NCBI GenBank assembly: GCA_001873285.1
Contig: MNYV01000143.1
Coordinates: 1 to 11,585 of the forward strand
DNA length: 11,585 bases
Source of the DNA: Nitrospirae bacterium CG2_30_53_67
GTDB taxonomy: Bacteria > CG2-30-53-67
Reading direction: 5' to 3'
Below the pieces are notes generated by a model. The model had not been told where the DNA came from, ran no database searches, and saw only the letters and a program-made list of their open reading frames with translations. The translations under genes were made by a program, and so were the position numbers. Of the stretch, positions 2,451-11,585 are shown in pieces (position 1 is the stretch's first letter; every line of letters begins with the position of its first letter).

Positions 2451-3533
2451 TCATGCCAGCTTACGCACCGCCTTTTTCATGGCCTGGATCAGGAGGAGGT
2501 TTTCCTCGTGCATCCGTACGGCCACGCGGAAAAAAACGGGACCGAGGCCTGGGAATGAGGCGCAGTTGCGCACCAGGATCCCGGACCGGAGCAGGGACTC
2601 AAAGAGACGTTCCGGTTCGGGGAGGGGAGGGGAGGTCTCAATGAGCAGAAAGTTTGCTTGTGAAGGGAAGACCCGGACACCGGGGATGCCGCCCAGTTCA
2701 TGAATCAGATAATCCCTTTGCTCGCGGACCAGGGCGACCGCAGCCTGGCGGTACGCTTCATCGCTGAGTGCGGCGATTGCGGCCGCCTGGGAGAGGCGAT
2801 TGACCGTCCAAGGTTCCTGGTGGATCCTGATCCTCTCCATGAGAGGTTCAGAACCGTACAAGGCGCCCGATCTGAGACCCGGTATCCCATAAAACTTGGT
2901 CAACGAACGGAGGACCAGGAGATTCTCGTATTCAGTCACCCGGAACCGGAACGACTCGCCCAGGACAAAGTCCATGAACGCCTCGTCAATCACAAGGGTG
3001 ACCTTTGAGTCTCCGGACGCGGAAAGGATCTTTTTCATCTCACCGCAAGGAACCAAGCCGCCGGTAGGGTTGTTGGGATTGCAGATCAGGACCAGGTCCA
3101 CATCCTTCTGCATCTGCTGGATGAACCGGTCCGTATCGAGGGCGAACGCCTCTTCCTTGCGGAGGGGAAAATGAACCACGGCAGACCCGGCCAAGGAAAG
3201 GGCACTCTCATAGTCCGAATAGGAGGGCATGGGGATCAGCGCCCTCTTGGGGCGGAGCACCCTTGGGATCAGATAGATGAATTCGGTGCTCCCGTTCCCC
3301 GCAAGGATATTCTCAGGCGGGATGCGGTCCCTTGAAGATAGAGTCTCCCTCAGGGTCATCGCATCGGTTTCCGGGTATTGCACCAGCCGGTCCATCTCCT
3401 GCAGGACGGCCTTGATCGCTGTTTTGGGCGTACCCAGGGGATTGATATTCGATGAAAAATCGAGGATCTCCTTCTCCGGGACACCGTACCGCCTCGATAT
3501 CTCTCTGAGATTTCCCCCGTGTTTTTGCTGCAT
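2451..3533 (-). CDS. cobD: L-threonine-O-3-phosphate decarboxylase (CobD), last gene of the cobalamin cluster
   Basis: A PLP enzyme of aminotransferase fold type I that decarboxylates threonine phosphate to (R)-1-amino-2-propanol phosphate, the linker joined to cobyric acid by CbiB. From ATG 3533 the protein has 360 residues, normal for the family. The HGGN start (residues 5-8), DFSSNINPLG (25-34), CNPNNPTG (151-158), DEAF (183-186) and the PLP lysine K213 in SLTKFYGIPGLR are present, as is R221. A TTG at 3560 would add nine residues but has no ribosome binding site, whereas AGGGGG precedes the ATG by 10 nt. The gene starts 36 nt after the cbiB stop, and the linker-making and linker-attaching enzymes are thus adjacent. 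Generic histidinol-phosphate aminotransferase is the main alternative family; the HGGN motif and context decide for CobD. Confidence 0.93.
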   Translation of the reverse strand: MQQKHGGNLREISRRYGVPEKEILDFSSNINPLGTPKTAIKAVLQEMDRLVQYPETDAMTLRETLSSRDRIPPENILAGNGSTEFIYLIPRVLRPKRALIPMPSYSDYESALSLAGSAVVHFPLRKEEAFALDTDRFIQQMQKDVDLVLICNPNNPTGGLVPCGEMKKILSASGDSKVTLVIDEAFMDFVLGESFRFRVTEYENLLVLRSLTKFYGIPGLRSGALYGSEPLMERIRIHQEPWTVNRLSQAAAIAALSDEAYRQAAVALVREQRDYLIHELGGIPGVRVFPSQANFLLIETSPPLPEPERLFESLLRSGILVRNCASFPGLGPVFFRVAVRMHEENLLLIQAMKKAVRKLA

Positions 3534-3569
3534 GATGCCAACACCCCCTATTTTAAACAACCGGCCATA

Positions 3570-4526
3570 TTAGTGAGAAAGAAGGAACCGGATGAAAACC
3601 GAGAAAGCGATCATTAACAAAGAGCTCGCATACATCAGGGAGACGGCCTCCCGGATACACTTCACGTGGAGTGGCCTTTTGGGGTCGCCGAGATGAAGCT
3701 TCGGCCTCGCCGCCCCCATGTAGACATTCGTACCGCCGAGCTGCACGCCCAGCGCACCGGCTGCAGCCGCCTCGGGAATCCCCGCATTGGGGCTGTCGTG
3801 TTTTCTCCCATCCCGCCGCATGATCCGCAAAGCCCCCGGCGCCGAGAGATTCAAGAAAAGGGAGCCCAGTACCATGAGCAGGCCCGTGATCCTGGCTGGA
3901 ATAAAGTTCGCAAAGTCATCAAACCGAGCTGGAAACCACCCGAGATCCCGGAAATGTTCGTGCTTGTATCCCAGCATGGAATCCAGCGTGCTGACGGCCT
4001 TGTAGGCCATGGCCGCGGGCGGCCCTCCGATGAGCAGATAAAAAAGAGGGGCGATGACCCCATCCGAGGTGTTCTCGCTCACAGTCTCGACCGCAGCGCG
4101 GATGATCTCCTGCTCCGTAAGATCCTGCGTCTCTCTCCCTACGATCCCGGAGAGGAACCTGCGGGCCTCCTCTATGCGGCCTTGTTCCAGACATCTTTTG
4201 ACCCTGTCTGCCTCCTGGTGCAGGCTTCTTGCAGACAGAGTGGTGTAGGCCAGAAATACGGCAACTCCCCATCCCAGAACAGGGTGAATCCCGGCGGCCC
4301 CGTGTATCAGCAGGAGGCTCAGCCCGTAACACAGAAAAACCAGAAACAGTGTGATCATGATACCGGCCAGGCGTCTCCCTTGCGATGAATGCGTAATGCT
4401 TCGTGCAAAACCTTCCAGTCCGGCGATGAGCCTCCCCATCAGGACCACGGGGTGCGGGAACCCCTCTGGATCGCCGAAGATCAGGTCCAGGAAGCAGGCA
4501 GCAATCAGAGCCAAAGGCGTCATCAT
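3570..4526 (-). CDS. cbiB: Adenosylcobinamide-phosphate synthase CbiB (integral membrane)
   Basis: This enzyme attaches aminopropanol phosphate to the f side chain of (adenosyl)cobyric acid at the inner membrane. The protein has 318 residues, typical length. Family landmarks in order: DLIFGDPEGFPHPV near the start, a hydrophobic pair around residues 50-95, VGRETQDL followed by ETVSENTSDGVIAPLFY, KAVSTLDSMLGYK, ARFDDFANFIPARI, RDGRKHDSPNAGIPEAAAAGALGVQLGG, and a hydrophobic C-terminal segment. The first of two adjacent ATGs is taken, with AGGA about 6 nt upstream; that AGGA overlaps the TAG stop of the preceding GATase-like gene, so translation is probably coupled. Isoleucine codons are mostly ATC (14 ATC, 5 ATT, 2 ATA by my count), a useful contrast with the gene just upstream. 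Confidence 0.96.
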   Translation of the reverse strand: MMTPLALIAACFLDLIFGDPEGFPHPVVLMGRLIAGLEGFARSITHSSQGRRLAGIMITLFLVFLCYGLSLLLIHGAAGIHPVLGWGVAVFLAYTTLSARSLHQEADRVKRCLEQGRIEEARRFLSGIVGRETQDLTEQEIIRAAVETVSENTSDGVIAPLFYLLIGGPPAAMAYKAVSTLDSMLGYKHEHFRDLGWFPARFDDFANFIPARITGLLMVLGSLFLNLSAPGALRIMRRDGRKHDSPNAGIPEAAAAGALGVQLGGTNVYMGAARPKLHLGDPKRPLHVKCIREAVSLMYASSLLMIAFSVFIRFLLSH

Positions 4527-4533
4527 TCAATTC

Positions 4534-5721
4534 CTAATTGCCGGCATGAACATCTATCAGGCGCTTGAATATCAGCGTATCGATTCTGTCGATTATCGAC
4601 TTGAAGAGTCCTCCGTAGCTCTTGCGATCCGAGAACATCCTGGAACGCAGGGCCTTTATCTCACTGTCGGAGGTCTTTGAGAAGGTGATCGCCTCCCCTC
4701 GCTGGAGTACCTGCCTTTCAAGTTTGAGAAGCCTCCCCGCCTTTGATACAAAATCCCTCACGTCCTCTGCAAGACCACCGGGCTCATCAGTTCCCTCCCC
4801 ATAGAGCACAGCGAGTTCCCTGACCATCCTAAAAAGTGTGTAATATTCCCAACCCCTTATCCCCCTTCGCCATTGTATAAAGGGGCTTCTCTCAAACCAG
4901 AGGAAGTTCCGCTTCCCGAACTTGAAGAGATCCTCCACAGCGTTATAAAGCGCTCCCGCAGGGGGAGTATCTTTGAGGACACGCGGGACACCTAAGGCAA
5001 GCCCGAGATGCTTCCAGAGGTTCCTGAGCGCCAGCTCCCCGTTTTCGTCGCCGGGGGTATCGAAGTGCAGGAGCGAAGCGAAAACTTTCCCTCTGCCATA
5101 GAGACCTTCGACCACAAGCGGGTCGCCCTCCATCCTTTCGGGATTCAGGTTTATGCCATATGCCTTCTCAATGGTCTCCCATCCGCAGGACTTCATATCT
5201 CCGACGTTGAGGTCGGAACTGAAGGCATCGTCTGAAGCTTGCTCGAACGAGGCCAGGGTCCTCATTCCGCCCTCCTTTATAACGAATTGGGATGGCCACC
5301 AGATTGTGAATAAGGGCTCTTTCAAGCCCTCCCAGAGGGCATGGCCTTCTGTCTTTATCTGTATACGGCCTGAGAGGCTGGGTACCCTCTGCTTCAGAGG
5401 CTTTCTCCGTATGTCCAGAAGTCCGAGCCCCTCGGCTGTTGCAAGTCCGGCGCCACCGCATATCCCGATGTATGAGCCGCCGGAAGCTACAAATCTCCTT
5501 ATGCCTTCCGCCCCATCCCTGCCCAAGGCCCTCATTTTGTTAGAGGCCCATCCTCCGGGGACGAAGAGCGCCTTAAACTCATCAAGCCTTCCGGCCCTTA
5601 TTTCCTCGGAGCTGACAAGGGAAAACCCGGCCCCGAGACATCGCAGGCTCTTGTAGGATACCAGTGCCCAGAGAAAGGACTCGTCCCAGAAAAGCGCCGT
5701 ATCAGAACTCATATCAGCCAT
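4534..5721 (-). CDS. Class-I glutamine-amidotransferase-like protein (BPL_N type) embedded in the cobalamin operon
   Basis: A 395-residue protein with two parts. Residues about 7-235 look like the BPL_N/GATase-1 fold: LFVPGG (52-57), nucleophile elbow GICGGAG with Cys88, and LLHFDTPGDENG with His219 and Asp221, where amidotransferases have HPE. All three positions of a Cys-His-acid triad therefore seem occupied. Residues about 240-395 form an alpha-helical, aromatic-rich region (FLWFERSPF, RGWEYYTLF) that I cannot assign. The gene starts 6 nt after the cbiP stop and ends 7 nt before cbiB, so it is surely cotranscribed. No step of the known pathway requires it, since CbiP carries its own glutaminase domain. 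Codon use is foreign: 14 of 20 Ile codons are ATA. A role in side-chain amidation, linker or lower-ligand chemistry is only a guess; 'biotin-protein ligase' is the name of the domain and not a function call. Confidence 0.75.
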   Translation of the reverse strand: MADMSSDTALFWDESFLWALVSYKSLRCLGAGFSLVSSEEIRAGRLDEFKALFVPGGWASNKMRALGRDGAEGIRRFVASGGSYIGICGGAGLATAEGLGLLDIRRKPLKQRVPSLSGRIQIKTEGHALWEGLKEPLFTIWWPSQFVIKEGGMRTLASFEQASDDAFSSDLNVGDMKSCGWETIEKAYGINLNPERMEGDPLVVEGLYGRGKVFASLLHFDTPGDENGELALRNLWKHLGLALGVPRVLKDTPPAGALYNAVEDLFKFGKRNFLWFERSPFIQWRRGIRGWEYYTLFRMVRELAVLYGEGTDEPGGLAEDVRDFVSKAGRLLKLERQVLQRGEAITFSKTSDSEIKALRSRMFSDRKSYGGLFKSIIDRIDTLIFKRLIDVHAGN

Positions 5722-5727
5722 GACAAA

Positions 5728-7227
5728 CTATCCCAATCCAGCCGCTTGCAAGATGGCATCCATATCCACATACTCCCGGAAGAGGCCGGCCAGACGAGCA
5801 AACTCACGGGATTTCAACTCATGATAATCGGTCAGTTCGCTGCTGCATGCGTGGTGGTCTTTCCGGATCGAATCCAAAAGCCGCCGTCGGATGGGAGCAT
5901 TTTCGAATATACCGTGGATATAGGTCCCCCAGACATTCCCCTTCGAACTCTGTGCCCCATCCTCCTCATCCACTGACCGGCCATTCCTCTTGGTGATGCG
6001 AAACATGCCCGAACATCCATTCAAACGAATGCTCTTCCCCATATGAATCTCATATCCGGTCAGATTCGGGAGACCATCCATGGACACAGCTTGGACTTGA
6101 GCCGTAACTTTTCCCCATGCCAGAACGGTCTCCACAGGAAGAAGCCCAAGACCGGCTTCTGCACTCTTTGCGCTCTCCACTCCATGAGGATCTTCAATGG
6201 TCTTACCGAGCATCTGAAAACCGCCGCAGAGACCGATGACCTGGCCCCCGTTATTTGAATAATCACAGATCGCATGGGCCATACCCGTCTCTTTCAAATA
6301 TCGGAGATCCCCGATCGTATCTTTGCTCCCCGGGATGATCACCACATCCAGTCCACGAATGGTTTCCTTGTCATCGACATAGATGACGTCCATGCCCGGA
6401 TCTCCTTCCAGGGGATCCAGGTCCGTGTAGTTGGATAGGCGAGGCAGTCTGACCACCCCGACACGGACCTTACCATCCGGTTCCATGCTTCTGCTCCTTT
6501 TCTCCGACAGGGCCACACTGTCTTCCTGTTCGATACGGAGATCTCTTATGTAAGGGAGCACACCGAACACGGGTTTCCCGGTCCGCTCCTCTATTTGCTT
6601 CAACCCCGGAGCGAGAAGACTCCGATCACCGCGGAACTTATTGATGAGAAACCCTCTGACCCGTTCTCTTTGTTGATCCTTCAGCAGGGCCATGGTCCCG
6701 ATCAAAGAAGCAAAAACCCCGCCCCGGTCAATATCAGAAACCAGGATCACCGGGGCGTCGGCCAATTCGGCCATCCGCATGTTAACAATATCCTGCTCAG
6801 CGAGATTGATCTCGGCAGGACTGCCCGCCCCTTCCAGAACAATCAGATCGAACCGCTCACAGAGGGATTCATAAGCCTCCCGAATGACATCGAGAGCCCT
6901 CTCCTTCATGGCATAATATTCCCGTGCCTTTGCGTTCCCCACAGGTCTCCCCATAAAAATGACCTGCGAACCTAAATCCGTGGTCGGTTTCAAGAGGATC
7001 GGGTTCATCTCCACACAGGGATCGATCCTTGCAGCCTCGGCTTGCACAGCCTGAGCCCTTCCGATCTCTTTGCCGTCTTTGGTGATAAAAGAGTTCAAGG
7101 CCATATTCTGGGCCTTAAAAGGAGCGACCTTCACTCCCATGTCCGAAAAGATCCGACAAAGGGCCGTCACCACAATGCTCTTCCCCACATGGGAAGCCGT
7201 CCCCTGGATCATGATGGATTTACACAC
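5728..7227 (-). CDS. cbiP: Cobyric acid synthase CbiP/CobQ (glutamine-hydrolysing)
   Basis: This enzyme uses ATP and glutamine to amidate side chains b, d, e and g of (adenosyl)cobyrinic acid a,c-diamide, giving cobyric acid. The 499-residue length is standard. The N-terminal synthetase domain shows the dethiobiotin-synthetase-like nucleotide motif QGTASHVGKS (8-17), FKAQNMALNSF (37-47), LEGAGSPAEINL (131-142) and SDIDRGGVFA (164-173). The C-terminal glutaminase domain has GLCGGFQMLG with Cys334 and GTYIHGIFEN with His438. The start is GTG, with AGGGA about 9 nt upstream; an ATG five codons in is less likely because it would cut into the first strand. It is separated from cbiH by a repeat-derived gap and followed at 6 nt by the BPL_N-type gene. 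Confidence 0.97.
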   Translation of the reverse strand: MCKSIMIQGTASHVGKSIVVTALCRIFSDMGVKVAPFKAQNMALNSFITKDGKEIGRAQAVQAEAARIDPCVEMNPILLKPTTDLGSQVIFMGRPVGNAKAREYYAMKERALDVIREAYESLCERFDLIVLEGAGSPAEINLAEQDIVNMRMAELADAPVILVSDIDRGGVFASLIGTMALLKDQQRERVRGFLINKFRGDRSLLAPGLKQIEERTGKPVFGVLPYIRDLRIEQEDSVALSEKRSRSMEPDGKVRVGVVRLPRLSNYTDLDPLEGDPGMDVIYVDDKETIRGLDVVIIPGSKDTIGDLRYLKETGMAHAICDYSNNGGQVIGLCGGFQMLGKTIEDPHGVESAKSAEAGLGLLPVETVLAWGKVTAQVQAVSMDGLPNLTGYEIHMGKSIRLNGCSGMFRITKRNGRSVDEEDGAQSSKGNVWGTYIHGIFENAPIRRRLLDSIRKDHHACSSELTDYHELKSREFARLAGLFREYVDMDAILQAAGLG

Positions 7228-7242
7228 TGGTTTTCCCTTATA

Positions 7243-7322
7243 TTCTGTCCCCTGATTTTTTGTCTACCGCCTACTGTCTACTGATTGATCTGTCTTCTGT
7301 CGTCCGTCATCTGCCTTCTGTC
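7243..7322. repeat. Simple-repeat filler between cbiH and cbiP, entering the cbiH 3' end
   Basis: Short units recur: CTGTCTTCTGTC at 7290-7301 and CTGCCTTCTGTC at 7311-7322 (11 of 12 identical), and GTCTAC twice at 7262-7281. The second CTG..TGTC unit encodes the last residues of CbiH (TEGR and stop), so the repeat has grown into or replaced the end of that gene. No hairpin with a U tract is seen, and no promoter is obvious. Confidence 0.55.
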
Positions 7323-8155
7323 CGATACCCCCGACTCGTAACCAAAACCTCTCCGAACTTTTTGGTGTCCGAGTTTCCGATGATCACGGTGGTCAGCATA
7401 TCGATCTCGTGATCGAGCATATGGTCGAGGTCTGCGATCACGATCCTGCTCTCTCCCCGCAGGGCCGAGCGCACCAGGCCTACCGGGACATCCCCGCTTC
7501 TTGACTCTCGAATAATCTTCCGGGCCTCAACAATTTGTTCTGTTCTTCCCTTGCTCTTGGGATTGATCAAGACAATCACAAAATCACCTTGGGCTGCGGC
7601 ATGAAGTCTCTTTTGGATGGTCTCCCAATCCGTTAACAGATCACTGAGAGAGATCACGGCATAATCGTTCATAAGAGGCGCGCCCAGAAGGCTCGCCGCG
7701 GCCTGCCCGGCCGTGACCCCTGGGACCACCTCCAGGTAGATCTTGGACCGCGGATAATCCCGTTGCAGGTCATGGATCATCTCCAGCGCCGGTCCGGCCA
7801 TACCGTAGACCCCGGCGTCCCCACTCGAGATCAATGCCACCCTGCGCCCGAAAAAAGTCTCCCGCACCGCCTCCTCGCACCGTTTGATCTCACTCCTCAT
7901 CCCCGATTCCCGGAACTCTTTCCCGGGAAATGCATTGGAGAGGAGGCGCAGATAGGTCCGGTACCCGACAATCACCTCGCACTCGTCCAGGACCTCCCTG
8001 GCTCGGCCGGTCATCTGGTCCAGGTCTCCGGGTCCGATCCCTACGAGGTAGAGGCGCCCCTTGACTCGGCCAGCGCCGCCGTCACATTGCCGGATACGGC
8101 CTTCGAAATCACAAGTGAATCCGCGCCTGCGCCTTTCATGGCCGCCTGTTCGCAT
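7307..8155 (-). CDS. cbiH: Cobalt-precorrin-3 (precorrin-3B) C17-methyltransferase CbiH/CobJ, start uncertain
   Basis: An SAM-dependent methyltransferase that methylates C17 and drives ring contraction. The conserved domain is complete: RLYLVGIGPGDLDQMT at the start, VIVGYRTYL, ISSGDAGVYGMA, VVPGVTAGQAAASLLGAPL, and TTVIIGNSDTKKF near the end. The ferredoxin-like C-terminal domain of long CbiH proteins is absent. The start is a problem. The domain begins at about 8065 with VKGRLYLV, where Val is GTC and no ATG, GTG or TTG occurs in this frame between 8155 and that point. The nearest in-frame starts are ATG 8155 (used here, 282 residues) and ATG 8188 (293 residues), giving a basic, Gly-rich N-terminal extension read entirely inside cbiG in the -1 frame. 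A -1 frameshifted CbiG-CbiH fusion or a damaged start codon are alternatives. The final residues derive from a simple repeat. Confidence 0.88.
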   Translation of the reverse strand: MRTGGHERRRRGFTCDFEGRIRQCDGGAGRVKGRLYLVGIGPGDLDQMTGRAREVLDECEVIVGYRTYLRLLSNAFPGKEFRESGMRSEIKRCEEAVRETFFGRRVALISSGDAGVYGMAGPALEMIHDLQRDYPRSKIYLEVVPGVTAGQAAASLLGAPLMNDYAVISLSDLLTDWETIQKRLHAAAQGDFVIVLINPKSKGRTEQIVEARKIIRESRSGDVPVGLVRSALRGESRIVIADLDHMLDHEIDMLTTVIIGNSDTKKFGEVLVTSRGYRTEGR

Positions 8156-9114
8156 ACCCCTTTTACCCCCAATTCCTTCTCTGCCCATACCGAAGGGCCC
8201 GAGCCGTCCGGCATGGCATTGAGTTCATCTCTGGTATAGAAGACCAGAGGAACGCCGAGCTTCGCCGCAAAATTCAGGAGCCCGGCCTCATCCTTTTTCA
8301 CATCGATGGTGGCGATCCGCCCCACGGACTGCAGGGCAAATCCCTCCCGTTTCAGGAGCTCCGTAACCACCTCATGGATCTCCGTCCCGGAGGTCCCCCG
8401 GTTGCACCCGATCCCCAGGACCAGGTTCCTCGGCCGGAGGATGAGGGTCCCGGGGTCCTGTTCCACTTGCCTGATCCTCCGGCTGCTGACGATGATTCGG
8501 GCTTCACATGACGAACCAAGAAGCCCCTCCAGGGTATCAAAAGAGACCCACGAGCCGTCCGCATCCCCAATCCACGGAACCCCCTCCCTGAAGATCCCCA
8601 CACATAAACCGTTTACAAGAGAGGCGTTGATCTTCTTGACGGCCTCAGGATTTTCGACCGCAAGGCCCATCTCCCCGGCCCAGAGTTCCACAGCCGGAAA
8701 ACCGGAGAGGTCCGTGGCCGTGGTAATCACGGGATCGGCCCCGATGGCTTGCGCGGCCTTCCTGCAGAGGGCATTGGCTCCACCGACATGCCCGGATACG
8801 AGGCTGATGACATGCTCTCCCTTCTCGTCGATGACCAGGACCGCCGGATCCGTGCGCTTGTCCTCAAGCAGGGGAGCAATCACTCGTACCACGATCCCGG
8901 CGGCCATGACAAAAATCATCGAGCGGTACCGGCCCCAGATCCTTGCGACCAGATCCGAAAGCGGCGGATCAAAGGGGATGAGGTTCTCACCTTCCCCTGC
9001 AAGGTTTGAGAGCGTATAACCATGGCATGCGGGAAGTGCTTCGCATAGACGTTTCCCGATCTCCCTGCCGTTCCTGGTCACGGACAATACGGCTATGTCA
9101 GCTTCAGTTTTCAT
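8041..9114 (-). CDS. cbiG: Cobalt-precorrin-5A hydrolase CbiG
   Basis: CbiG opens the ring-A lactone of cobalt-precorrin-5A and releases acetaldehyde; its presence assigns the operon to the early-cobalt (anaerobic) pathway. The protein has 357 residues. The N-terminal domain includes FVMAAGIVVRVIAPLLEDKRTDPAVLV (split here as FVMAAGIVVR and DKRTDPAVLV, about 68-94) and SLVSGHVGGAN (104-114), typical of CbiG_N. A middle region follows, and the C-terminal domain runs from NLVLGIGCNRGTS (230-242) to SGNVTAALAE (341-350). The ATG at 9114 is chosen because GGGAGAAG stands immediately before it and the family homology begins there; the frame is open further upstream but only inside cbiF. It overlaps the end of cbiF by 11 nt, and its own last 25 nt encode the start of the CbiH domain in another frame. 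Confidence 0.94.
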   Translation of the reverse strand: MKTEADIAVLSVTRNGREIGKRLCEALPACHGYTLSNLAGEGENLIPFDPPLSDLVARIWGRYRSMIFVMAAGIVVRVIAPLLEDKRTDPAVLVIDEKGEHVISLVSGHVGGANALCRKAAQAIGADPVITTATDLSGFPAVELWAGEMGLAVENPEAVKKINASLVNGLCVGIFREGVPWIGDADGSWVSFDTLEGLLGSSCEARIIVSSRRIRQVEQDPGTLILRPRNLVLGIGCNRGTSGTEIHEVVTELLKREGFALQSVGRIATIDVKKDEAGLLNFAAKLGVPLVFYTRDELNAMPDGSGPSVWAEKELGVKGVCEQAAMKGAGADSLVISKAVSGNVTAALAESRGASTS

Positions 9115-9892
9115 CTTCTCCCTGGGCCTCCCGGTACCCGTGTGAAAAGTCTTCATCATAGAGCAGGGACCGGGGTGCGCTCTCCATGGAGCGGAGGATC
9201 GGATCCAGGACGTCTCCCACAATGATCAGGGCCTGGCGTTTGATCCCCTCCCGCTCCGTCTGCCCTGCGATCTCCGAGAGTTCCCCCCGGAGGATCTTCT
9301 GGTCCGGCCACGTGGCTCGATAGACCACGGCCGCCGGCGTATCCCCTCGGTAATGCTCCATGAGTTCCGAAACCACCTCCCGGATCATCCCCATACTGAG
9401 GAAGATCACCATGGTGGCGTTGTGGCTTGCGAGCAGGGAAAGGCGCTCTTTCTGAGGGACCGGCGTCCTCCCGCCCCGCCTCGTCAGGATCACGGTCTGG
9501 GAGATGTTGGGAAGAGTCAGTTCCTGGCGCAGGGCCGCTGCGGCCGCTGACCATGAACTCACCCCGGGCACCATATCAAAGGAGATCCGGTATTTCTCCA
9601 GTTCCACCATCTGCTCGAAGATCGCTCCATAGATGGACGGGTCCCCGGAATGGATGCGGACCACCTGGCGCCCTTGTAGCGCATCGGCCACCATGGCCTT
9701 GATGATCTCTTCGAGGGTCATCTTAGCGGTGTCTTGGATCCTGGCCCCCTCTTTGGCCCATTTCAGGATGTCGGGATTGACGAGTGAGCCCGCATAGAGG
9801 ATGGTATCCGCTTCAGAGATCAGCCGCCTGGCCCGCAGGGTCAGGAGTTCCGGGTCTCCGGGCCCGGCCCCCACAAAATAGACCTTAGACAT
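9104..9892 (-). CDS. cbiF: Cobalt-precorrin-4 (precorrin-4) C11-methyltransferase CbiF/CobM
   Basis: An SAM-dependent tetrapyrrole methylase that methylates C11 before CbiG opens the lactone. The 262-residue protein carries GAGPGDPE (8-15), the CbiF-specific YAGSLVNPD (33-41), RIHSGDPSIYGA (79-90), MVPGVSSWSAAAAAL and LTRRGGRTPVP. The last two separate it clearly from the C17 and C20 enzymes. The ATG has AGGGGG 8 nt upstream. The 3' end overlaps cbiG by 11 nt, so product and next enzyme are probably made in step. It is separated from cbiL by a 94-nt spacer that holds a 38-bp palindrome. Confidence 0.97.
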   Translation of the reverse strand: MSKVYFVGAGPGDPELLTLRARRLISEADTILYAGSLVNPDILKWAKEGARIQDTAKMTLEEIIKAMVADALQGRQVVRIHSGDPSIYGAIFEQMVELEKYRISFDMVPGVSSWSAAAAALRQELTLPNISQTVILTRRGGRTPVPQKERLSLLASHNATMVIFLSMGMIREVVSELMEHYRGDTPAAVVYRATWPDQKILRGELSEIAGQTEREGIKRQALIIVGDVLDPILRSMESAPRSLLYDEDFSHGYREAQGEDEN

Positions 9893-9939
9893 TCGTCAAT
9901 CCCCCTCATCTCTCGCCCACTACACAGTGGTAAACTCTC

Positions 9940-9977
9940 TGCCACAGAGCCCACAGAGCTCTGTGTTCTCTGTGGCA
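9940..9977. repeat. 38-bp imperfect palindrome between cbiL and cbiF
   Basis: Outer arms TGCCACAGAG (9940-9949) and CTCTGTGGCA (9968-9977) are exact reverse complements. Between them lies CACAGAGCTCTGTG (9952-9965), itself a perfect 14-bp palindrome, with a CC/TT mismatch pair at the join. The motif CACAGAG is used four times, twice on each strand. It starts 10 nt after the cbiL stop and has no U tract, so it reads as a REP-like element or mRNA-stabilising hairpin and not as a terminator. Confidence 0.7.
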
Positions 9978-9986
9978 ATAGGTTTT

Positions 9987-10709
9987 TCATTCGTGTTGAG
10001 ATGTCACGATCAAGGTGGAAAGGTAGTCCACTTGATCAGGATTTACTGCCGAAAGGTCCCGGTAAATCTTCTCCTCCGGGGTCCCGCACCGGGAGACCAG
10101 GACGGCCCGGTCCATCATCCCCATCTCCCTGAGAAGTTCGATCACTTCTCCAAGCACACGGTGGACCTTGATCAGGACCACGGTCTCGTACTTCTCCAGC
10201 GCCTCACGGATCTCGTCCATTCTGTAAGTCGCAGGGAGGATCAGGACACGTCCTCCGGTACGGGCCAGGGGGACTTGGGCCGCCGCCGCCGAGGCCGTGA
10301 TCGAACTGACCCCCGGGATGATCTTGCAGGTCACATCCGGATGCTGCTTCTGCATCCGGCCGAGGACATACCCAAAGGTGCTGTAAAGCAGGGGATCGCC
10401 CAGAGTAAGAAATGCCGCGTCGCTGCCTTTGGAAAGGACATGATAAATCTTTTCCACGGCATCCATCCATACTTTTTCCAAAACCTCGGGTTCCCTCTTC
10501 ATGGGAAAGGAAAGGAATTCTACCTTCTGCCACGCCGGATTTAAAATCTTCTTCACGACTTCGAATGCGTGGCTCCCCGAATCGGATCTCGCCTCCGGGC
10601 AAAAGATGACCGGCACCTGCTGAAGGATCCGGGCTCCCTTGAGGGTCAGAAGTTCCGGATCCCCCGGCCCCACGCCGATACCGTAAAATGTCCTTTGAAG
10701 TTTAGACAT
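9987..10709 (-). CDS. cbiL: Cobalt-factor II / precorrin-2 C20-methyltransferase CbiL/CobI
   Basis: An SAM-dependent enzyme that methylates C20 of cobalt-factor II (anaerobic form) or precorrin-2, the first methylation specific to the corrin branch. The protein has 240 residues, normal length. It shows YGIGVGPGDPELLTLKGAR near the start, PVIFCPEARSDSGSHA, AFLTLGDPLLYSTF (99-112) and IPGVSSITASAAA, the combination typical of the C20 enzyme; CPEA and LLYSTF distinguish it from CbiF and CbiH. The ATG has GGAAG about 4 nt upstream. Whether the substrate contains cobalt cannot be read from this gene, but cbiG downstream argues that it does. An A/T-rich 47-nt gap precedes it. Confidence 0.95.
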   Translation of the reverse strand: MSKLQRTFYGIGVGPGDPELLTLKGARILQQVPVIFCPEARSDSGSHAFEVVKKILNPAWQKVEFLSFPMKREPEVLEKVWMDAVEKIYHVLSKGSDAAFLTLGDPLLYSTFGYVLGRMQKQHPDVTCKIIPGVSSITASAAAAQVPLARTGGRVLILPATYRMDEIREALEKYETVVLIKVHRVLGEVIELLREMGMMDRAVLVSRCGTPEEKIYRDLSAVNPDQVDYLSTLIVTSQHE

Positions 10710-10756
10710 GTTCTTCCATATAATTTTTTATTTATAATAAATTATTCTTTTCCGCT
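10710..10756 (-). promoter_or_regulatory. A/T-only island upstream of cbiL; possible internal promoter
   Basis: Positions 10718-10746 are 29 consecutive A/T bases in an otherwise GC-rich operon, including TATAAA- and TTATAT-like hexamers on the minus strand. No convincing -35 box is seen. It may be an internal promoter, an unstructured ribosome standby site before the GGAAG of cbiL, or neutral filler. Confidence 0.25.
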
Positions 10757-11585
10757 CTACGAGCCATCGGCCGAGATGATGAACACGGGATTTTCCGCCT
10801 GCATCATGACCTTTCCCTTGAGGTCGTGCCCCCGGCCGATCTGGACCGAGACCACATCAAGAGAGAGTCCCCGTTTCTTCAGGAACGCCACGGTCTGGTG
10901 CAGGGTCTCCAGGGTCACGGCATTGACCACGATCCTCCCGCCTGGACAAAGCCTCCGGACCGCGTTCCTGAGGATCTCTTCCAGATGCCCGCCGCTTCCG
11001 CCGATGAAGACCCGGTCAGGATCGGCAAGCCCCTTGAGCACGGAAGGGGCCTCACCCCGGACGACTCGGATATTCCCGGACCCGAAGCGCAGAATGTTCC
11101 GTTTCAGCATGGAGATCCGCTTGGCCGACTTCTCCACGGCATAGACCGTAACCCCCCGGGCCAGCCTGGCGGCCTCGATCGAGACCGAACCGGATCCGGC
11201 GCCCACGTCCCAGAGGATATGGCCCGGCCCGATCCTGAGCTTCCCAAGGGTCACGGCCCTGACCTCGGACCGGGTGATCATCCCCTTGTCGTGGGCCAAG
11301 ACATGATCCGGGATCCCGAATCCCTCCTCCCCGGCCCGGTCGTTCAGGATAATCATCACGTTCAGATCGGGAAACCGCTTCCCGGTCAGTGAAGAGAGGT
11401 TCCCCTGCCAGACCTTCTCATCCGGTCCTCCCAACCGGCTGCAGACATAGACCGTCGTGTCCGGAAGACCGGCTTTCAGCAGGGCCCTCGCGATCCGCGA
11501 CGGATGGTTCTTCGGATCCGTGAGCACGGCCACCTTGGTGCGGCTCCTGACCGTATGAATCACCGAGAGGAGATCCCGTCCATGG
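10757..11585 (-). CDS. cbiET: CbiE-CbiT fusion (CobL-like cobalt-precorrin methyltransferase/decarboxylase), 5' end outside window
   Basis: The frame is open to the right edge. The first residues read HGRDLL, matching the HGR motif of CbiE (C5-methyltransferase), and continue through the C-terminal half of that domain to about LNDR. The second domain is CbiT, which methylates C15 and decarboxylates the C12 acetate: KGMITRSEVRAVTLGKL, the SAM-binding glycine loop DVGAGSGSVSIE (encoded at about 11209-11174), YAVEKSAKRISML, and DRVFIGGSGGHLEEIL. This E-T order equals CobL of the aerobic pathway. An internal GTG at 11563 could look like a start but falls inside the CbiE domain and is not one. Roughly the first 110-130 residues are missing from view. 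The stop is TAG, 47 nt before cbiL. Confidence 0.95.
   Translation of the reverse strand, partial: HGRDLLSVIHTVRSRTKVAVLTDPKNHPSRIARALLKAGLPDTTVYVCSRLGGPDEKVWQGNLSSLTGKRFPDLNVMIILNDRAGEEGFGIPDHVLAHDKGMITRSEVRAVTLGKLRIGPGHILWDVGAGSGSVSIEAARLARGVTVYAVEKSAKRISMLKRNILRFGSGNIRVVRGEAPSVLKGLADPDRVFIGGSGGHLEEILRNAVRRLCPGGRIVVNAVTLETLHQTVAFLKKRGLSLDVVSVQIGRGHDLKGKVMMQAENPVFIISADGS

Follow-up and report, generated by a model that had tools for sequence, protein, structure and literature searches.

The gene at positions 4534..5721 (minus strand) of the window, the whole analysed stretch of 11,585 nt, was found to encode a GATase-like protein of a Dsr- and cob-associated family, as judged from its open reading frame, a Pfam BPL_N match and 61 relatives. 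The family keeps a catalytic-type Cys-His-Asp/Glu triad, lies in cob operons and downstream of a cobalamin riboswitch, and depends in its distribution on the joint presence of dsr and cob genes. A role in the cob pathway of dsr-bearing cells is very probable. As a fuller explanation we tentatively propose an accessory tetrapyrrole amidohydrolase or amidase with a Cys triad, which would edit amides at the junction of siroheme and corrin synthesis.

The open reading frame, starting with ATG and coding for 395 aa, was confirmed, and the coordinates bore out the close spacing described by the sequence-only reading, with 6 nt (5722-5727) to cbiP and 7 nt (4527-4533) to cbiB. The gene stood within a run of cob genes on a single strand (minus for all window features given here). 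The run contained cbiP for cobyric acid synthase (5728..7227; 654.6 bits), cbiB for adenosylcobinamide-phosphate synthase (3570..4526; Pfam CobD_Cbib 1e-106, TIGR00380 above cut-off) and a threonine-phosphate decarboxylase gene of cobD type (2451..3560; TIGR01140, 332 bits). The upstream part of the same operon (7307..11563) held cbiH, cbiG, cbiF, cbiL and a cbiE/T-type gene with a tentative 5' end in the window; these genes were syntenic with the operons of G003 (L172) and G001 (L027), and cbiF matched TIGR01465 with 343 bits. CbiP had been said to bring its own glutaminase domain, and an intact GATase_3 domain (GLCGGFQ) was indeed present in it. Against the copy of the same genus, dN/dS was 0.43 for the GATase-like gene, 0.08 for cbiB and 0.19 for cbiP, and the value of 0.43 indicated mild purifying selection on the GATase-like gene. 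The reading frames of cbiH (7307-8188) and cbiG (8041-9222) overlapped by 148 nt in different frames, in the window as in G003 (L172), which may reflect a misplaced cbiH start or a genuine long overlap.

BPL_N (PF09825) was the sole Pfam domain above cut-off in the GATase-like protein (27.4 bits against 24.2), the alignment covering only 46 of the 283 positions of the profile, and a GATase_3-type domain reached 18.9 bits, under its cut-off of 27. The Pfam search gave no match to the biotin-ligase catalytic domain at E<=1 and did not find the ATP-binding CbiA domain; NCBIfam returned nothing strong, and the PDB sequence search returned weak GATase matches only. The AlphaFold2 model, built from 16 sequences (pLDDT 87, pTM 0.90), was matched by Foldseek to the class I glutamine amidotransferase fold (E 1.4e-7), and on this model the N-terminal half is a domain of that fold. 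Residues 6-242 (4996..5706) matched PdxT/YaaE 2ywd with Z 21.6 and rmsd 2.1 over 177 residues, and HisH with Z ~20. Cys88 (codon 5458..5460), the presumed nucleophile, lay in a strand-Cys-helix elbow (GICGGAG) with strand 83-87 before it and helix 89-93 after it in the model; His219 (5065..5067) and Asp221 of the LHFD motif (5059..5061) were likewise where the sequence-only reading had placed them, and the secondary-structure positions of the triad residues fitted the class I GATase fold. Conservation across relatives, the lack of which that reading had named as a refutation, was complete: Cys and His were each kept in 61/61, and the third position was acidic in 61/61 (Asp in 42, Glu in 19). 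Such strict conservation argues for catalysis.

A helical C-terminal domain was also present, but it spanned about 144 residues (252-395; 4537..4968; model pLDDT 85.8) and not about 155 as first estimated. Its invariant or nearly invariant residues were W275, R278, W284, R286, R289, E292, E335 and R359. Modelled alone, the domain had no Foldseek match at E<=0.001, its best structural Z of 8.6 (rmsd 4.3) was in the chance range for helical bundles, where a fold could be missed, and the PDB sequence search gave no matches beyond chance.

The scan of 84,980 species genomes yielded 17 loci of the family, from Nitrospirota, Actinomycetota (Aquicultor, Thermoleophilia, Gaiellales) and Deltaproteobacteria-type bins, among them a copy of the window's own genus with 96% identity from a Hainich groundwater bin. 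Only two of the loci, this window-genus copy and a Nitrospirota copy, stood beside cob genes, and most others adjoined dsrEFH, aprAB, dsrAB or dsrL; the neighbouring dsrE, dsrF, dsrH, dsrA, dsrB, aprA and aprB genes were above their NCBIfam cut-offs. Neither cob-type nor dsr-type genes were close to the family gene in L006 and L014. Other weak matches in the sampled genomes had only ~45-150 residues in common with the family, and L018, with 53 residues matched, was left out as a member in the alignments.

The 17 genomes of the scan loci all contained dsrA, which scored above cut-off in 16 and was divided between contigs in the other. In a sample of 386 genomes of the domain, full-length members (>200 bits) occurred in 6, all of them within the 36 dsrA genomes. 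In a set of 198 genomes of a Nitrospirota-like phylum, which included the Thermodesulfovibrionales genome of L003, the family occurred in 42 genomes, 41 of them with dsrA (Fisher 7e-17, too small a value because of kinship among the tabulated genomes, although the members span many families). The sole carrier without dsrA, G604, was a draft with its copy between cbiGH and dsrEFH, and its sister genome has dsrA. Where the family gene and dsrA shared a contig, 7-20 kb separated them in ten genomes, and one further genome had a spacing of 41 kb. The family gene was inside dsr clusters in Actinobacteria, in L008 (beside dsrN-dsrB-dsrA) and in G358, close to dsr in several Nitrospirota-like genomes, and outside any dsr cluster in the window. 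In Actinobacteria its nearest neighbours were dsrEFH, aprAB, SQR-like, dsrL and dsrAB genes, and in the loci examined there were no cob genes beside it and no cob linkage. The cobalamin link of the original reading was thus upheld, but the reading had missed a second requirement, the near-exclusive co-occurrence with Dsr sulfite reduction. Within the best-represented phylum only about half of the dsr genomes carried the family. The window genome itself had two dsrAB loci of unequal score, L093 (G000:C147) and L094 (G000:C37), and the second adjoined a DsrL-like oxidoreductase gene.

With cbiF as the marker of corrin synthesis, the 198 genomes were divided into four classes. The family was present in 38/52 genomes with both dsrA and cbiF, in 3/35 with dsrA only, in 0/37 with cbiF only and in 1/74 with neither; the three carriers with dsrA and without cbiF were draft genomes in which other cob genes adjoined the family gene. 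The effect of cbiF within dsrA genomes had Fisher p 1e-9 and that of dsrA within cbiF genomes p 1e-13, both p-values being too low owing to relatedness of the genomes. A general cob gene was rejected by the absence from genomes with cbiF only, and a pure dsr gene was weakened by the rarity in genomes with dsrA only, together with the operon and riboswitch data. In the window's family, the gene was carried by G000, G001 and G003, all with dsr and cob, and was lacking in G005, also with both; it was lacking too in the dsr-positive, cob-negative genomes G002 and G004 of this family and G006 and G007 of the same class. Since 14/52 dsrA- and cbiF-bearing genomes of the Nitrospirota-like phylum, as well as G005, lacked the gene, both pathways can be present without it. 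G358, which was 100% complete, had the gene in a dsr cluster, no cbiF and only one CbiA/DsrN-type gene, and a few further carriers were without a cbiF match. The copy number of CbiA/DsrN tracked the presence of cob and not that of the GATase-like gene.

In the Nitrospirota-like phylum, cbi genes were located within 3 kb of the family gene in 37/40 neighbourhoods, so the homologues were not scattered free of cob/cbi genes. The cbiGH genes lay within 200 nt in 31/40, usually upstream and mostly overlapping the start of the family gene. In G590 the family gene was first in its operon, overlapped cbiA and was followed by a cbiX-cbiC (sirohydrochlorin chelatase) fusion. A full cobalamin riboswitch (103.6 bits) ended 127 nt upstream of its start codon, and a strong terminator hairpin with a T run (-19.7 kcal/mol, z -5.5) ended at the ATG, so that conservation in cob operons was joined here by a riboswitch directly upstream. 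Cobalamin riboswitches also headed cob gene runs in G566, G284 and, in the window's genus, G001, and judging from gene direction their transcripts would extend to the family gene. A second cobalamin riboswitch occurred farther along the G590 region (L151:13099-13263), before cbiM-type genes. The neighbours of the family gene included amidase genes: the window has cbiP, G590 has cbiA and G003 has DsrN. Placement in cob operons in two separate lineages and riboswitch control in one made a role in the corrinoid pathway likely. The accessory role in this pathway suggested by the sequence-only reading was supported to that extent, but it did not cover the Actinobacteria copies, which stood with dsrEFH, apr and dsr genes and no cob genes.

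The window's gene was probably acquired by transfer. In G003, of the window's family, the cob genes had the same order, cbiP overlapped cbiB and nothing lay between them, and the window's cob proteins were closest to those of G003 and G005. The window's GATase-like protein was most similar to Nitrospirota-type members and grouped with them with support of 100/99. Vertical descent, with one clade formed with the divergent copy of G003, was rejected (p-AU 2e-5); that copy adjoins a DsrN-type gene 15 kb from dsrA. The discordant affinities and the lack of a gene between cbiP and cbiB in G003 thus pointed to a probable transfer into an existing cob operon, and going by these sequence comparisons the site of insertion was probably unlike that of the donor type. 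Insertion into a native cob operon favours a functional link to corrinoid synthesis over chance neighbourhood.

Sirohydrochlorin is the common precursor of siroheme and cobalamin/corrinoids, and DsrN, CbiA and CfbB, which are homologous, amidate similar side chains. To our knowledge, there is no explanation of how cells keep siroheme and cobalamin products apart. DsrN is described as a CbiA homologue that amidates siroheme (PMC10504309), and the a and c side chains as the shared targets of amidation by CbiA, CobB and CfbB (PMC7242693). For bacteria making both siroheme-dependent DsrAB and corrinoids, we infer that the protein most likely acts on a sirohydrochlorin- or corrin-type intermediate, at its carboxylate/carboxamide side chains, with amide hydrolysis as the reaction and editing as the purpose. 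Binding of the polyanionic macrocycle, or of a partner amidase, would fall to the W141-W142-P loop and to the C-terminal domain, rich in Arg and Trp, and Cys88, activated by His219 and Asp/Glu221, would attack the amide carbonyl to give an acyl-enzyme. Water would then resolve the acyl-enzyme, and removal of the misplaced amide would keep the products of DsrN (siroheme) apart from those of CbiA/CbiP (corrin). Against such editing, the nearest actinobacterial neighbours were not amidases, and editing between DsrN and CbiA leaves G358, with its lack of cbiF and its single CbiA/DsrN-type gene, unexplained. That the protein represents a new enzymatic step or quality control joining dissimilatory sulfite reduction and cobamide synthesis, as a Cys-triad hydrolase that sorts amidated tetrapyrroles, is somewhat doubtful. 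If true, the editing hydrolase would be needed only by cells running the siroheme-amide and corrin pathways together.

The fold and the triad would also suit a true glutaminase which, like PdxT, feeds ammonia to a partner such as CbiA, CbiP, DsrN or another enzyme. PdxT, the closest fold, is an active glutaminase that supplies Pdx1, and it too is without the Gln of the G-x-C-x-G-x-Q elbow; the adjoining amidase genes would provide partners. However, CbiP of the window has a GATase domain of its own, complete CbiA and DsrN-type genes are found in the carrier genomes, the C-terminal domain matches no ATP-binding family, and the need for dsr is left unexplained; this reading is unlikely. The need for both dsr and cob, together with cobalamin riboswitch control, would be accounted for if the protein protected or repaired corrinoids (or cobalt handling) in a sulfite- and sulfide-rich cytoplasm, for example with Cys88 stripping a sulfur ligand or adduct, for the cobalt of corrinoids takes up sulfite and thiols as ligands. 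We know of no case of sulfur-adduct removal by the class I GATase fold, many genomes with dsr and cob lack the gene, and G358 carries it without cbiF; protection also seems improbable.

A role as a sulfur-relay partner of DsrEFH/TusA, with Cys88 carrying sulfane sulfur and the cob linkage secondary, would agree with the dsrEFH genes near the family gene in 11/11 actinobacterial-type loci and with type II dsrEFH within 3 kb in 11/40 Nitrospirota-like neighbourhoods. The presence of DsrEFH nevertheless failed to separate genomes with and without the GATase-like gene, dsrH being about equally common in both groups of dsr genomes; the gene or a relative occurs in G030, G064, G066 and G072, where dsrH is missing, and the independent cob-operon insertion and riboswitch control would go unexplained. 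We regard this role as decidedly unlikely. Loss of catalysis, leaving a binding or regulatory protein that allots sirohydrochlorin to iron for siroheme or to cobalt for cobalamin, would fit the order in G590 of riboswitch, GATase-like gene, cbiA and chelatase-cbiC fusion, as dsr-bearing cells make much siroheme, but it is at odds with the strictly conserved triad and appears very unlikely.

The nearest known systems have some features in common with the family. PdxT/YaaE and HisH resemble its N-terminal fold (Z 20-21.6) and share the position and kind of the triad, whereas the GATase-like family adds the C-terminal helical domain, a GFCGGAG/GICGGAG elbow and another genome context. The cut-off of BPL_N, a GATase-like N domain named for biotin-protein ligases, was passed without any biotin-ligase domain. 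The amidases CbiA/CobB, CbiP and DsrN have a pathway or operon in common with the family and a distant GATase_3-type domain; here, unlike in them, the GATase domain stands at the N-terminus, joined to a helical domain, and the CbiA domain is absent. Like the accessory genes DsrEFH and DsrN, the family is nearly confined to dsr genomes and often lies in or near dsr clusters. By keyword search, no such protein was named in Dsr surveys (PMC10504309, PMC10591310, PMC11406059, PMC13293266, PMC13047784) or mentioned in a tetrapyrrole review, and BPL_N or BPL-N was not found together with dsr or cobalamin in the openly accessible literature. We rate the family as a known fold with a role previously undescribed in the literature searched. 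Dsr and cob, both well-surveyed systems, each gain a candidate gene from it, and a conserved, cobalamin-controlled protein near-exclusive to cells with both pathways offers a concrete gene for testing product separation.

Several other genes were observed near members of the family. A ThiC-like gene followed the family gene in Nitrospirota-like cob operons (L091:10961-12262; also L130, L131, L147, L149 and L155), in some with a 4-nt overlap; it was above the ThiC and below the BzaB cut-off and scored as ordinary ThiC, but may have a lower-ligand (BzaF-like) role. In Aquicultor-type loci, cobalamin riboswitches (L007:15498-15692 and L004:17041-17212, both minus strand) were directly before ThiC-like genes, which may make a cobamide lower ligand, and Thi4 in L007 was preceded by a TPP riboswitch. 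A Cons_hypoth698 gene (putative sulfate exporter type) was ~2.5 kb or less from the family gene in the Deltaproteobacteria-type bins L006 (4078-5679) and L008 (3817-5262). The SQR-like gene next to the family gene at L004:6569-7573 matched the first 330/406 positions of SQR_III_seleno (NCBIfam), where the match broke off, so it may encode a selenoprotein made by stop-codon readthrough.
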